Positions 53,721-58,634 of a DNA stretch of 64,000 nt are shown here, one piece after another. Where the stretch lies: contig JAGRIU010000029.1 of assembly GCA_020443075.1 (NCBI GenBank), forward strand, positions 62,001 through 126,000. Direction: 5' to 3'. The notes beneath the pieces were generated by a model. That model was given only the letters and a program-made list of their open reading frames with translations. It did no database searches and was not told the origin of the DNA. Position numbers and translations under genes: made by a program. This stretch comes from Alphaproteobacteria bacterium. GTDB lineage: Bacteria > Pseudomonadota > Alphaproteobacteria > Micavibrionales > Micavibrionaceae. How positions within the stretch are numbered: the first letter of the stretch is position 1; every line of letters begins with the position of its first letter.

Positions 53721-55364
53721 TCAGGCCGCTTTGCGGGTTTTGAGGTTTAGGGCGGCCTCGAGCAAGGCTTTGGTGTATTCATCCTGCGGGTTTTCGAAGA
53801 TTTCATGCGCGGGACCGGCCTCGACGACCTTTCCGTCTTTCATGACGATCAGATCATGGGCCATGGCTTTGACGACGCGCAGATCGTGACTGATGAACAG
53901 ATAGGAGAGATCGTGGCGGGTTTGCAGTTCGCGCAACAGGTCAACGATTTGCGCCTGTACGGAGAGATCGAGCGCGGAGGTCGGCTCGTCCAGTACGATG
54001 AATTTCGGGCGCAGTGCGAGCGCGCGGGCGATAGAGATGCGCTGGCGCTGGCCGCCGGAGAATTCATGCGGATAGCGATGGCGGGTTTCGGGGTCCATAT
54101 GCACGTCTCGCAGCGCTTCGATAATGAGTTTTTCGCGGGCGGATTTATCGAGATCGCGGCGGTGGACCTTGAGCCCTTCGCCGATGATTTCTGCGACGCT
54201 CATGCGCGGAGAAAGGCTGCCGAACGGATCTTGAAACACGATCTGCATGTCGGCGCGCAAGGGAAGCATTTCGCGGCGGTTATAGCGCGCGATATCTTGG
54301 CCTTCGAAGCGGATTTGGCCTTCGACCTTGAGGAGGCGCAGCAGGCCAAGGCCTAGCGTGGTCTTGCCCGAGCCGCTCTCGCCGACCACGCCGATGGTCT
54401 GGCCTTTTTTAGCGACAATGTCGATATTATCTACAGCCTTAACCCAAGAAGTTGGGTGGCCAAAGAAATTCTTTGTTTTCGGGAAGTGAATGCGCACCCC
54501 CCTGCCCTCAAGAATGACCGGAGCGTTGTTGTCGGCCTTGACTGCGTCGCCTTTGGGCTGGGCGGAGAGCAGCATTTTGGTGTAGTCGTGCTGCGGGCTT
54601 TTGAAGAGCGCCTTCGTTTCGCCCTGCTCGACGATTTTACCGTTTTGCATGACGCAGACCTGATCGGCCATTTTTTCAACGATGGTCAGGTCGTGGGTAA
54701 TAAGAATGAGCGCCATGTTCAGGCGTTTTTTAAGATCGTTCAGGAGTTCAAGAATTTGCGCCTGAATGGTCACATCCAGCGCGGTTGTGGGTTCGTCCGC
54801 GATCAGAAGCTGCGGGTTATTGGCGAGCGCCATAGCAATCATGACACGCTGGCGCTGGCCGCCGGAGAGTTGATGCGGGTAGGCATCGAGGCGGGTTTTA
54901 AGGTTTTCCAGGCCGACGAGATCGAGGAGTTCGGCGACGCGGGCGCGCGCTTGATCCTTATTCATCTTCTGGTGCAGAAACAGCACCTCGGCGATTTGTT
55001 TTTCGATTGTGTGCAGCGGGTTGAGGGCGGTCAGAGGCTCCTGGAAAATCATGCCGATTTGCTGGCCGCGGATGGTGCGCATAAAGCTGTCGCCTTTGCC
55101 CACCAGTTCTTCGCCTTCGAACAGGACGGAGCTTTCGGACGTGTGCGAGGCCAGCGGATAGGGCAGAAGCTGCATCACCGAGAGCGCCGTGACCGACTTG
55201 CCGGAGCCGGATTCACCGACGAGGGCCAGCGTCCGGCCTTTTTCGAGAGAAAAACTCACATCATCGACCGCGCGGAACTTATTGTTTCCGGGGCCGCCAC
55301 CATCACTGCGCGGGCGCTTGAAATCAACGGAGAGGTTTTGGACAGTGAGAAGCTTTTGATTCAT
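53721..55364 (-). CDS. yejF: Peptide ABC transporter ATP-binding protein YejF
   Basis: YejF is the fused double ATPase of the Yej importer. The 547-residue product (ATG at 55362-55364, [20 protein letters not shown]) has two ABC modules. The first has Walker A GESGSGKS, signature LSGGQRQRV and a Walker B of the [12 protein letters not shown] type. The second has [17 protein letters not shown] and [12 protein letters not shown]. The nine residues upstream from GTG-like starts have no family likeness. It is on the strand opposite to yejABE, separated by rpsU, so the importer genes are not one operon. Confidence 0.95.
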
Positions 55365-55433: not shown

Positions 55434-55487
55434 GCGTCAGGTTTGTTTTTTCAGTGCGGGCGAAAAGTTAAGACATCCGGTTTTTCA

Positions 55488-55517
55488 TTGACCGGCCGAA
55501 TTGTAATGTGCTTATAT
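55488..55517 (+). promoter_or_regulatory. Candidate promoter of first tandem unknown gene
   Basis: TTGACC (55488-55493), an 18-base spacer and TTATAT (55512-55517). The upstream block TTAAGACATCCGGTTTTT (55468 on) recurs before the second tandem gene (56130 on). Confidence 0.45.
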
Positions 55518-55552: not shown

Positions 55553-56074
55553 ATGGTTGCATATTGCGATGAAATGAGCCCCATTGGGGTGGGCCGTATA
55601 TGGAGAAACTCTACAACTCACGCCGCATTTTGCCCTCGAACGCAAACAGAGCTCACTATTTTTGATTTTTATAATGAATGCAAGGCCTTGTACGGATCCG
55701 GATTTGCGCTCATATATACGGATAATTTTGACAGAAAAGATAAATTTGAGCACGTTGAAGCCACAAATCTGGATGCTCATGCGTTAATAAAACGGATTCA
55801 AACCGGAAACATGGATGGCGCGGAGGTTGATTCACAGCAGAGAGTTTTGGCTATCCTTGATCTTGGAAAACCATTCGAAGAGCAATGGCCATACAGCCCA
55901 GGCACTGTTAAGTACCGGGAGCAGTTAGTCAAACGTCCGGTCATATCACCGCAGGTGATTTGCCGAGACGATATGGACTTTAAAAGCCGAAAGCCCTACC
56001 AAGGCTTGTTCAATAACGGTCCTCTCAAAGGGATTGTTCAGGGTGGAAAACCACCAGAACCAGTCGGCGAATGA
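55553..56074 (+). CDS. Hypothetical protein, tandem paralogue 1
   Basis: The 173-residue product is of unknown function. Its middle and C terminus (GSGFALIYTDNFDRKD, then AILDLGKPFEEQWPYSPGTV and RPVISPQ) align with the next gene's RFVVMYGDK, LLDTEQSFQAQWPFVPGL and HPVISLPR, so the two are paralogues. No signal peptide, membrane helix or catalytic motif is evident. A 24/25-identical block precedes both genes. It is followed by a copy of the argH 3' end (56082-56128). Codon use is more AT-rich than the neighbours, consistent with recent acquisition. Start ATG at 55553 lacks a strong ribosome binding site. Confidence 0.6.
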   Translation: MVAYCDEMSPIGVGRIWRNSTTHAAFCPRTQTELTIFDFYNECKALYGSGFALIYTDNFDRKDKFEHVEATNLDAHALIKRIQTGNMDGAEVDSQQRVLAILDLGKPFEEQWPYSPGTVKYREQLVKRPVISPQVICRDDMDFKSRKPYQGLFNNGPLKGIVQGGKPPEPVGE

Positions 56075-56081
56075 TCATCCC

Positions 56082-56128
56082 GCTATTTCTTCACACTTAA
56101 AACCTTGTAAATTTCATCGGTGATGCGG
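56082..56128 (-). pseudogene. Second copy of the argH 3' end
   Basis: On the minus strand this reads RITDEIYKVLSVKK and a stop, the same 14 C-terminal codons as argH (56887-56932). The 47-base copies differ at five positions, and all five are synonymous. The rest of argH is absent, so this is a displaced tail, not a gene. Confidence 0.8.
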
Positions 56129-56129
56129 A

Positions 56130-56154
56130 TTAAGACATCCGGTTTTTTATTGAC
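56130..56154 (+). repeat. Duplicated upstream block of tandem genes
   Basis: A 25-base segment starting TTAAGACATCCGGTTTTT and ending ATTGAC matches 55468-55492 with one mismatch. It begins directly at the end of the argH tail copy. Confidence 0.75.
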
Positions 56155-56208
56155 ATAGAATACTTCCTGTATTACGAAAAAACGAGATCAAAAAAGGATG
56201 CATAAAAA

Positions 56209-56880
56209 ATGCCAAAACGTTCGAATCCGTTGGGTCAGCTAGAACAAAGCCTGGCTGCTCTAGAGGAATTCTCAAAAACTGCACCTGAGCTTGTGGCAAG
56301 CCTTCGAGACACCTTAGAGCGGTATAAGGGCGGCGAGGTTGACAGCGCCGCGTTGTATGACGCGGCAACAGCGCTTTCAGGGCCTTTTACACAGGCGCAC
56401 ACAAAACATTTTGACGTATTATGGACGACGGAGGACATAGATCGCGATGAGGGGGCTCGGCGATTGCGGAATGAATGGATTCAATCCGGGAGAGTTTTTA
56501 CGCCGAAGTCTCCGATTGAATGTGATTTATGGCGCAAGTTTCATGAGTTTAAGCAACAAGGATATCGCTTTGTTGTGATGTATGGCGATAAGAGTGGAAT
56601 GGGCAGCCATCCCATAGAGGCGATTGAAAACGATCAAGACGCAAGACGCATTTTATCTCACATACAGTTTGACCGTGAGCTAAGCCTTATGGCTTTGCTC
56701 GATACGGAGCAATCTTTTCAAGCGCAATGGCCCTTTGTTCCCGGGCTCATTCAACAGCCACAAGATCTGTATCATCATCCCGTTATTTCGCTTCCTCGGG
56801 ATGAGGCAGAAGCAAAACCTGATGGTGATTATATCGACGGGGTCGCTACTCGTGTAGACGAGCATATGCTGCTGCGTTGA
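56209..56880 (+). CDS. Hypothetical protein, tandem paralogue 2
   Basis: The 223-residue product has an N-terminal helical region absent from paralogue 1 (LEQSLAALEEFSKTAPELVA), then the shared domain: FKQQGYRFVVMYGDKS, ILSHIQFDRELSLMALLD, QAQWPFVPGL and HPVISLPR. No membrane helix or known motif is seen. AAAAAAGGATGC lies before the ATG at 56209. It ends six bases before the convergent argH stop. Both paralogues look like recently inserted or duplicated genes at the argH 3' boundary. I do not recognise the family. Confidence 0.6.
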   Translation: MPKRSNPLGQLEQSLAALEEFSKTAPELVASLRDTLERYKGGEVDSAALYDAATALSGPFTQAHTKHFDVLWTTEDIDRDEGARRLRNEWIQSGRVFTPKSPIECDLWRKFHEFKQQGYRFVVMYGDKSGMGSHPIEAIENDQDARRILSHIQFDRELSLMALLDTEQSFQAQWPFVPGLIQQPQDLYHHPVISLPRDEAEAKPDGDYIDGVATRVDEHMLLR

Positions 56881-56886
56881 TTCCGG

Positions 56887-58230
56887 CTATTTCTTCACGC
56901 TTAGCACTTTGTAGATTTCATCGGTGATGCGGGGTTCGACGAATTTCATGTCATCGAGCGGGAGTTCGTCGAGTTTGCAGCCCTTATCCTCGGCCATTTT
57001 GACGATGCGTCCGGTTACGTGGTGGGCGTCGCGGAATGCCAGGCCCAGACTTATCACCAGCCAGTCGGCCAGCGCGGTGGCCGTGGTGTAGCCCATTTCG
57101 GCGGAATTGAGCATGGCTTGGGTGTTAAAGGTCGCGGTTTGCAGCATACCTTTAGTGGCTTCAAGACACAGAATGAGCGTATCGTAGCTGTCGAAGACGG
57201 GTTCCTTGTCTTCCTGTAGGTCCTTGTTATAGGCCAGCGGCAAGCCTTTGAGGACTGTCATCATCTGGATCAGGTTGCCGTTCAGGCGGCCCGTTTTACC
57301 GCGCACGAGTTCGGCGGCGTCCGGGTTTTTCTTTTGCGGCATGATGGAGGAGCCTGTGCTCCATTGGTCGGAGAGCTTCATAAAGCCGAATTGCGGGGTG
57401 GCCCAGAGGATGATTTCCTCGGCTAGCCGCGAAAGGTTCAGGCCGCACTGGGCGCAGCAAAAGAGGAACTCGGCGGCGAAATCGCGCGCGGATACGGCAT
57501 CGAGCGTATTGACCATCGGGCGTTTAAAGCCGAGCTTTTCCGCCGTGTAGTCACGGTCGATCGGATAAGGCGTACCGGCTAGCGCGGCCGCGCCCAGCGG
57601 GCATTTATTCAAACGCTCCGCGCAATCGCGCAGGCGGGTTTTATCGCGGTTGAGCATCTGCGCATAGGCATCGAGGTGGATGCCGAGCGTGATGGGCTGG
57701 GCGGCCTGAAGATGGGTGAAGCCGGGCATGATATCGCCTGCGTGTTTGTCGGTGAGATCGCCGAGCGTATCTTGCAGCGCCTCGATCCGCGCGATGAGGT
57801 TTTGCGCGGCTTCGCGTGTCCACATGCGAAAATCTGTGGCGACCTGATCGTTGCGGGAACGCGCGGTATGAAGCTTGCCTGCGGGCTCGCCGATCATTTC
57901 TTTCAGGCGAGATTCGATATTCATGTGAATATCTTCGAGCTCGGTTTTGAATTCCAGTTCGCCGCGTTCGATTTCTCCGGCGATCCGGTTCAACCCGTCG
58001 ATGATGGCTTTGGCTTCTTTTTTCGTGATGATGCCCTGCTTGCCCAGCATTTCGGCATGGGCGACCGAGCCGCGGATATCCTGAGCCCACAGGCGCTGAT
58101 CGACATGGATCGAGGCGTTGATTTGTTCCATGACGTCCGAGGGCTTTTCGGCGAAACGCCCGCCCCACATTTTATTGGCGTTGTTGTTATTTTTTTCACT
58201 CTTTTGAACCACGACGATCACTACGGTCAC
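56887..58230 (-). CDS. argH: Argininosuccinate lyase
   Basis: ArgH splits argininosuccinate to arginine and fumarate, the last arginine step. The 447-residue product has WGGRFAEKPSDVMEQINASI near the N terminus, GEPAGKLHTARSRNDQVATD, and the fumarase-superfamily signature GSSIMPQKKNPDAAELVRG. The start is uncertain. The frame opens at GTG 58230, with further GTG codons at 58221 and 58212 and an ATG at 58170 just before the conserved WGGRF. None has a good ribosome binding site, and the region lies in the CCACRACG repeat (58207-58234). I keep the longest frame, but 58212 or 58170 is as plausible. The last 14 codons recur at 56082-56128. Confidence 0.94.
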   Translation of the reverse strand: MTVVIVVVQKSEKNNNNANKMWGGRFAEKPSDVMEQINASIHVDQRLWAQDIRGSVAHAEMLGKQGIITKKEAKAIIDGLNRIAGEIERGELEFKTELEDIHMNIESRLKEMIGEPAGKLHTARSRNDQVATDFRMWTREAAQNLIARIEALQDTLGDLTDKHAGDIMPGFTHLQAAQPITLGIHLDAYAQMLNRDKTRLRDCAERLNKCPLGAAALAGTPYPIDRDYTAEKLGFKRPMVNTLDAVSARDFAAEFLFCCAQCGLNLSRLAEEIILWATPQFGFMKLSDQWSTGSSIMPQKKNPDAAELVRGKTGRLNGNLIQMMTVLKGLPLAYNKDLQEDKEPVFDSYDTLILCLEATKGMLQTATFNTQAMLNSAEMGYTTATALADWLVISLGLAFRDAHHVTGRIVKMAEDKGCKLDELPLDDMKFVEPRITDEIYKVLSVKK

Positions 58231-58235: not shown

Positions 58236-58634
58236 TTATAAAATAAAGCGTTTAATCCCGTCCTTTAGAAGTTGCGTATTAAAATTCAGGAGTAACCCTA
58301 AACGAATATCTGTCAGTTTTAAATAGGTTAGTAACTGGGCCTCGTGAACAGGCAATACTTTTTGAACCGATTTTATTTCGACAATGACTTTGTCATCAAC
58401 CAGCATATCCAATCGGTATCCGGCATCGATTTTTGTCCCTTCATGGATCAAAGGGAGTGTTTTTTGGGTTTCAACTTTTAAGTTTTGATTTTGAACCAGT
58501 TCATAGGCCAACAGGTGTTCGTAAGCATTTTCAAGCAATCCCGCGCCATATTGCCTATGGATTTTAAAGGCTGAATCCAAGATTTTCTCAGCCACTCCAT
58601 TTGCCGGATCATTTGGATGTAAATCTTTCGGCAT
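58236..58634 (-). CDS. GxxExxY family protein
   Basis: The 132-residue product carries GAGLLENAYEHLLAYEL (about 31-47), the G-x2-E-x2-Y motif, and RLDMLVDDKVIVEIKSV (about 74-90), whose D...E-x-K resembles the core of PD-(D/E)xK nucleases. The role of these small proteins is not known. Length is normal (about 125-135). It lies between the phnA-like gene and argH on the same strand, with different codon use (more AT-rich), so it may be an insertion into the arginine cluster. Confidence 0.88.
   Translation of the reverse strand: MPKDLHPNDPANGVAEKILDSAFKIHRQYGAGLLENAYEHLLAYELVQNQNLKVETQKTLPLIHEGTKIDAGYRLDMLVDDKVIVEIKSVQKVLPVHEAQLLTYLKLTDIRLGLLLNFNTQLLKDGIKRFIL

Follow-up and report, generated by a model that had tools for sequence, protein, structure and literature searches.

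Displaced argH 3' ends as probable scars of integrase-free, homology-anchored gene insertion in Micavibrio-type alphaproteobacteria

Introduction

In the genome of a Micavibrio-type alphaproteobacterium (here G000; 1.97 Mb in 71 contigs), whose named relatives are Micavibrio MAGs, the minus-strand genes for argininosuccinate lyase (argH) and a double-ATPase transport protein enclose two plus-strand genes, gene 1 and gene 2, and between these two lies a second copy of the end of argH. The question raised by the locus is how a stranded, well-preserved end of an intact gene came to lie there, and whether it records duplication within one genome or the arrival of DNA from another. The window (the whole stretch of DNA analysed, 64,000 nucleotides, on contig C16 of G000) was compared with the genomes of 103 other members of the family. 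The features under discussion are as follows.

53721-55364, minus strand: dipeptide/oligopeptide ABC transporter ATPase (double ATPase), which directly follows argH in relatives without cargo
55468-55492, plus strand: 25-base unit end upstream of gene 1, TTAAGACATCCGGTTTTTCATTGAC
55553-56074, plus strand: gene 1, 173 aa, distant paralogue of gene 2 with the same family profile, convergent with the displaced tail
56083-56128, minus strand: displaced argH 3' end of 14 codons and a stop, probably the earlier, resident one (5/5 differences synonymous; 4/5 sites match argH of congener G002)
56126-56141, plus strand: predicted terminator-like hairpin followed by a T-run, spanning the junction, which would end the gene 1 transcript (from a consensus scan only)
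56128-56130, no strand: junction of the displaced argH end with the 25-base sequence of the gene-2 unit, a presumed non-homologous joint, where the alignment breaks
56130-56154, plus strand: 25-base unit end upstream of gene 2, TTAAGACATCCGGTTTTTTATTGAC, 24/25 identical with 55468-55492
56209-56880, plus strand: gene 2, 223 aa, function unassigned, of a family with the motif F-x-x-Q-W-P, convergent with argH
56887-56932, minus strand: current argH tail, probably incoming (in the tree, argH groups with genus g5, G010, and not with its own genus g1)
56887-58230, minus strand: argH, intact (Pfam Lyase_1 4.6e-77, ASL_C2 9.4e-23)

The displaced argH end and its neighbors

That the last 47 bases of argH recur on the same strand, with the same 14 codons and stop and only synonymous differences, had been proposed in the initial annotation and was confirmed in each respect. 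Positions 56082-56128 and 56886-56932 are identical at 42 of 47 bases (41/46 for the displaced end at 56083-56128), and in the argH frame on the minus strand both copies read RITDEIYKVLSVKK-stop. The five differences, ATC/ATT, AAA/AAG, GTG/GTT, CTA/TTA and AGC/AGT, are all synonymous, an outcome with a probability of about 4e-4 if five single-codon changes between the two tails fell by chance. Chance similarity of the tails is excluded: they align locally with a score of 33.5, and none of 500 Markov resamples of the region scored above 13.0. No third copy turned up when the whole G000 genome was searched. Past the junction at 56128-56130, argH reads on GGGTTCGACG and the displaced copy reads on ATTAAGACATCC, with no microhomology evident at the joint. 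The consensus scan that predicted the terminator-like hairpin at this point returned 3 such elements, with 1.5 expected. It should be kept in mind that the argH tails compared are short and that the genomes are draft or metagenome assemblies.

The two flanking genes had been described as paralogous; homology was indeed found, the word covering here proteins of only about 30% identity (29-31%, E 1e-6 to 1e-8) whose promoter regions do not align. Neither gene had a match in Pfam, PHROGs or PADLOC, and the predicted structure of gene 2 (mean pLDDT 50) was too poor for use. Beyond G000, the family has distant homologues of the two genes in no more than three genomes (G107, G044 and G041), each time between xerC and lpd; no relative has gene 2 at argH, and a donor locus was not found. 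The 25-base sequence occurs only in its two copies in G000 among the 104 genomes of the family. On the other side of argH, between it and the next gene, the minus strand at 58236-58634 encodes a 132-aa protein, which looks to be of the GxxExxY family, with no homologue nearby in the loci of the named relatives.

Two argH lineages in tandem

One account of such a repeat would be that the argH end and a gene were simply duplicated in tandem and that the spare copy then drifted. The same-strand copies, the homologous flanking genes and the 25-base upstream sequence common to both are what such a duplication would leave, and yet three observations make it very improbable, as had been surmised from the synonymous differences alone. 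First, all five differences are synonymous. Second, polarised against the outgroup G002, a congener, four of the five changes map to the functional argH and one to the unconstrained displaced copy; an unconstrained copy should change faster than argH, and the opposite ratio of 4:1 is not expected even under equal per-site rates (relative-rate test, P=0.004). Third, against 89% identity of the tails stand flanking genes with about 30% protein identity and unalignable promoters; genes so much more diverged than an unconstrained, non-coding tail cannot be of the same age as it.

The simplest reading of these sequences is that the two tails would derive from two diverged functional argH genes. That one tail comes from a diverged but functional argH had also been suggested earlier, and synonymous-only divergence, the relative-rate test and the displaced tail's codons, which match argH of G002 at four of five discriminating sites, all bear this out. 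Over 39 bases, however, the two G000 tails are still each other's nearest sequences, with five differences, a distance tied with that between the displaced tail and G002, which means either a closely related donor or a faint signal. G000 carries a tandem pair of diverged, functional argH ends, with a cargo gene of its own beside each (cargo denoting genes between argH and the ATPase gene).

Phylogenetic analysis agreed with this in part. The ATPase tree unites all five genus-g1 genomes, G000 included, in a single clade (96/85); by argH, G000 is instead paired with G010 (96/95), a member of genus g5. AU tests rejected a single clade of all five g1 genomes for argH (p=0.001) and a pairing of G000 with G010 for the ATPase (p=2e-5); a grouping of G000 argH with three of its four congeners was not rejected (p=0.10). 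From this tree conflict and these tests, argH of G000 has probably been replaced, on a case made up of several moderate signals. Trees of argG, argF and argD mostly had too little support to place G000. A second argH exchange is probable in G003, which groups with G012 in the argH tree (100/97) and is kept in g1 by the ATPase.

The argH-ATPase interval as a cargo site

Among the 43 genomes of the family with both argH and the ATPase gene in range, 33 hold cargo between the two, and in the remaining 10 the genes lie less than 100 bases apart (for example -8, 3, 14, -4 and 25 bases in G007, G001, G003, G015 and G030). The cargo interval ranges from 445 to 2885 bases and accommodates many unrelated families, including transglutaminase-like, ArsC, fasciclin, pyrophosphatase and GNAT proteins. 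Neither integrase nor transposase was present among the Pfam families listed for 46 cargo proteins, at E values down to about 3e-5 (3.5e-5). Two earlier suggestions, that the argH end is a recurrent insertion site and that no integrase accompanies it, are thereby upheld, the first also by displaced argH ends in three further genomes (below). The locus fits the class of horizontal-transfer hotspots without mobile elements in which recombination occurs at flanking core genes.

Within genera, the argH C-terminus takes either a long form (approximately NAVKSRNG) or a short one (approximately KVLSVKK or KI), and the short form accompanies cargo (loci L035-L104); by hand count it was found in 28 of the 33 genomes with cargo and in 5 of the 10 without. 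Two loci differ in what they contain. In G011 (L044, 1424-3752) the gap between argH and the ATPase gene holds three tandem paralogues of 254-261 aa and about 40% identity, without displaced tails. In G092 (L065, 938-6290) a complete rRNA operon and two tRNAs occupy the place downstream of argH that belongs to the ABC ATPase gene in relatives.

Displaced ends in other genera and at other genes

Displaced argH ends were found in four genera, in G000 and in G012, G058 and G106. In G012, which has no congener for comparison, the displaced end lies between two unrelated genes, and 32/32 identical bases switch abruptly to a diverged but homologous end, in the manner of a recombination breakpoint: argH ends IYKVLSIR-stop and the displaced copy IYAALSVRHE-stop. 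In G058, two tandem units follow argH, each made up of an argH end and a gene, with tails identical at 45/47 positions; a different, long end, ITEYIFSVLSMENAVKNMHG-stop, still adjoins the ATPase gene, as in the congener G007 (ITDDIFSVLSVKNAVKNRNG-stop). The genes of these two units (L068, 363-2563) are transglutaminase-like paralogues 50% identical, and the unit ends are near-identical while the interiors have diverged. In G106 the displaced end, PKITNDIFSVLKIKP-stop, is more like that of the congener G015 (ITNDIFKVLKIK-stop) than like its own argH. Since the displaced end resembles that of a congener in both G058 and G106, it looks to be the resident one. In all four genera the junction lies shortly ahead of the codons I-T, and its positions span only about 12 bases.

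Two further candidates were set aside. At the junctions of G058 and G106, the sequence AAAATN8-10ATTTT, a palindrome considered as a recombinase site, follows from the codons K-I-T...I-F. The other candidate, some 66 codons of an argH C-terminus at the end of a G014 contig (C10, L050), is unlike argH of G014 itself and was too diverged to count as another displaced end. In G000, a search of about 0.94 Mb in pieces (some overlapping, about half of the genome) together with the window revealed no displaced gene end other than that of argH, so the event is rare per genome.

Scars of the same form were found at two other genes. In G107 (L143, 1693-1740) a displaced lpd 3' end lies beside a distant homologue of genes 1 and 2 in the xerC-lpd interval, with six codon differences in 15, five of them synonymous; it is the only one in 39 readable lpd loci. 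Two successive units there have an identical 43-base unit end and unrelated genes inside; this unit end has the look of a dispersed intergenic repeat. In G045 (L092, 3923-4107), displaced ends of ggt (64/73 identical) and of the ABC ATPase gene (107/122) are fused to each other between a 66-aa gene and aqpZ. The order in G045 is ATPase, 66-aa gene, 73 nt of ggt end, 122 nt of ATPase end, aqpZ, ggt, and that in the relative G003 is ATPase, aqpZ, ggt (genes that we presume to be aqpZ and ggt from their sequences, without a search). Comparison of the two orders indicates that the G045 insert ends inside the ggt coding sequence and has a different spacer gene. On sequence grounds the insert would therefore be a piece of a relative's chromosome, running from an ATPase end via a different spacer gene into ggt and joined to the resident ATPase end. 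An end inside a second coding gene speaks against integration at one set attachment site, and duplication alone would not account for the change of spacer gene. G045 is the clearest evidence on mechanism, and its arrangement points to captured chromosomal fragments rather than a cassette or phage.

Proposed mechanism

Taken together, the segment 56082-56932 is probably the scar of related Micavibrio-type DNA that was inserted at the argH 3' boundary by an integrase-free, homology-anchored process. For the donor, the order of events and the route we infer the following. Before the insertion the resident locus would have consisted of argH, gene 1 and the ABC ATPase gene. A fragment of a relative's chromosome, on which gene 2 lay with the 25-base sequence and the 3' end of an argH, would have recombined with the resident argH through homology, and its other end would have been joined, without homology, to the resident gene at a point 46 bases short of where the stop codon ends. 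The resident argH end would thereby have been stranded downstream of the new gene 2, and argH would have stayed intact because the incoming end encodes the same residues. The current argH end of G000 does run on into homologous argH, and the other side breaks abruptly at 56128-56130. Upstream of gene 1 there is no remnant above chance of an original long argH end.

Homologous recombination had been named earlier as the simplest route. The conflict between the argH and ATPase trees agrees with it; its plain two-sided form, however, leaves no displaced tail, and one non-homologous joint is thus also needed. Such a joint could arise by a single crossover of a re-circularised fragment (insertion-duplication) or by homology-facilitated illegitimate recombination of a linear fragment. 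Both routes are integrase-free and would give exactly this product; on sequence alone, either may have acted. In E. coli, linear DNA that had been trimmed and re-circularised duplicated 109-950 bases of the lacZ end by a single crossover, and for naturally competent species homology-facilitated illegitimate recombination has been described (PMC3240628). G000 has ComEC, which is only permissive for DNA uptake and not specific to it, since E. coli also matches ComEC.

The same process probably marked argH in the three other genera, lpd in G107 and the ATPase gene in G045. In every scar, homology on one side is matched by a non-homologous joint on the other, in the same gene and 46 to about 122 bases before the gene end. 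Counter-points to the proposed mechanism are the clustering of the argH junctions, which plain illegitimate joining does not predict, the failure to find a donor locus or a relative with gene 2 at argH, the lack of a long-end remnant upstream of gene 1 and of microhomology at the G000 joint, and the nearness of the two G000 tails to each other and the unrejected argH grouping described above.

Alternative explanations

That clustering, within about 12 bases in four genera and just before the same codons, is what site-specific integration would give, in which single-gene cassettes with a surrogate argH 3' end are inserted by an integrase acting in trans. The prophage e14 leaves the same kind of scar at icd, with a 165-bp end (PMC11148124), and in G000 and G107 two tandem units are alike at both ends and differ inside. 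We nevertheless consider site-specific integration unlikely. The cargo includes no integrase, the same scar is found at lpd and the ATPase gene as well, the G045 insert ends inside the ggt coding sequence, and unit ends differ between genomes, the 25-base end being unique to G000. Insertion specific to the argH end also does not predict a conflict in the argH tree, and gene 2 had no match in phage, plasmid or viral-contig collections. A search of viral contigs for the argH-end pattern gave three matches, all of them unrelated sequence. Slightly more doubtful still is the idea that Micavibrio-type bacteria harbour very small mobile cassettes of a hitherto undescribed family, holding one or a few genes together with a stand-in for the 3' end of the target gene, which an enzyme supplied from elsewhere would place at one set position shortly ahead of the final argH codons. 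Integron gene cassettes were rejected, with no integrase in the cargo and no repeated recombination site in the family (attC looked for via Rfam only).

No better placed than site-specific integration, and to our minds similarly unlikely, is an old tandem duplication of argH end, gene and 25-base end within one genome, of which the first copy and argH were later overwritten by recombination with a relative. Tandem units with common ends in G000, G107 and G058 have the topology that this would leave, and the G058 units, by their tails and their half-identical paralogues, look like ordinary tandem duplicates; against it, two events are needed for each scar, and the units of G045 and G107 hold unrelated genes. 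An assembly artefact, in which two metagenome strains were joined at a variable locus, would look alike in an assembly of 71 contigs whose relatives are mostly MAGs, and can be largely dismissed, as the junction is seamless and consists of novel sequence that no shared k-mer would create, contamination of G000 is estimated at 0.16%, and the pattern repeats in five other independent assemblies.

Relation to known systems

Homology-anchored insertion of a relative's DNA, the preferred reading, gives the locus a wider meaning. Gene gain at hotspots without recognisable mobile elements has been argued mostly from statistics, and a stranded, synonymous-only gene end is a base-level record of one event, indicating the resident sequence, the incoming sequence and the position of the non-homologous joint. 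Scanned across genomes, displaced gene ends would give a countable signature of integrase-free gene gain. The short argH C-termini of the family may be replacements rather than products of slow drift, and insertion hot spots can grow without a dedicated insertion enzyme in sight.

A close parallel for the scar itself is e14 in icd of E. coli K-12, where a 165-bp icd end is displaced and differs by 12 base changes and two amino-acid changes (PMC11148124). There as here, a housekeeping gene has received a new 3' end from incoming DNA, its former end has been pushed aside and bears mainly synonymous differences, and the 3' end of the target gene stands as a direct repeat at both ends of the insert. 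In contrast, e14 is a prophage at an attachment site, and the inserts described here comprise one or few genes with no integrase, in several target genes. The single-crossover and homology-facilitated insertions in E. coli likewise duplicated part of a gene end, 109-950 bp of lacZ, beside the inserted DNA (PMC3240628); those arose under laboratory selection, whereas the present cases are drawn from natural genomes and have diverged donor ends.

Of the horizontal-transfer hotspots known, about half have no recognisable mobile elements (PMC5635113). As a site of gene gain, the locus resembles the integrase-poor hotspots of Oliveira et al. 2017 (PMC5635113): variable cargo lies between two conserved genes, mobile-element genes are not recognisable, and a flanking core gene has a conflicting tree. 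Two-sided homologous recombination was inferred for those hotspots (PMC5635113), whereas the stranded gene end here would record one non-homologous joint at base resolution. The argH locus is thus a well-resolved case of hotspots without mobile elements, and its scars point to one-sided, homology-anchored insertion.
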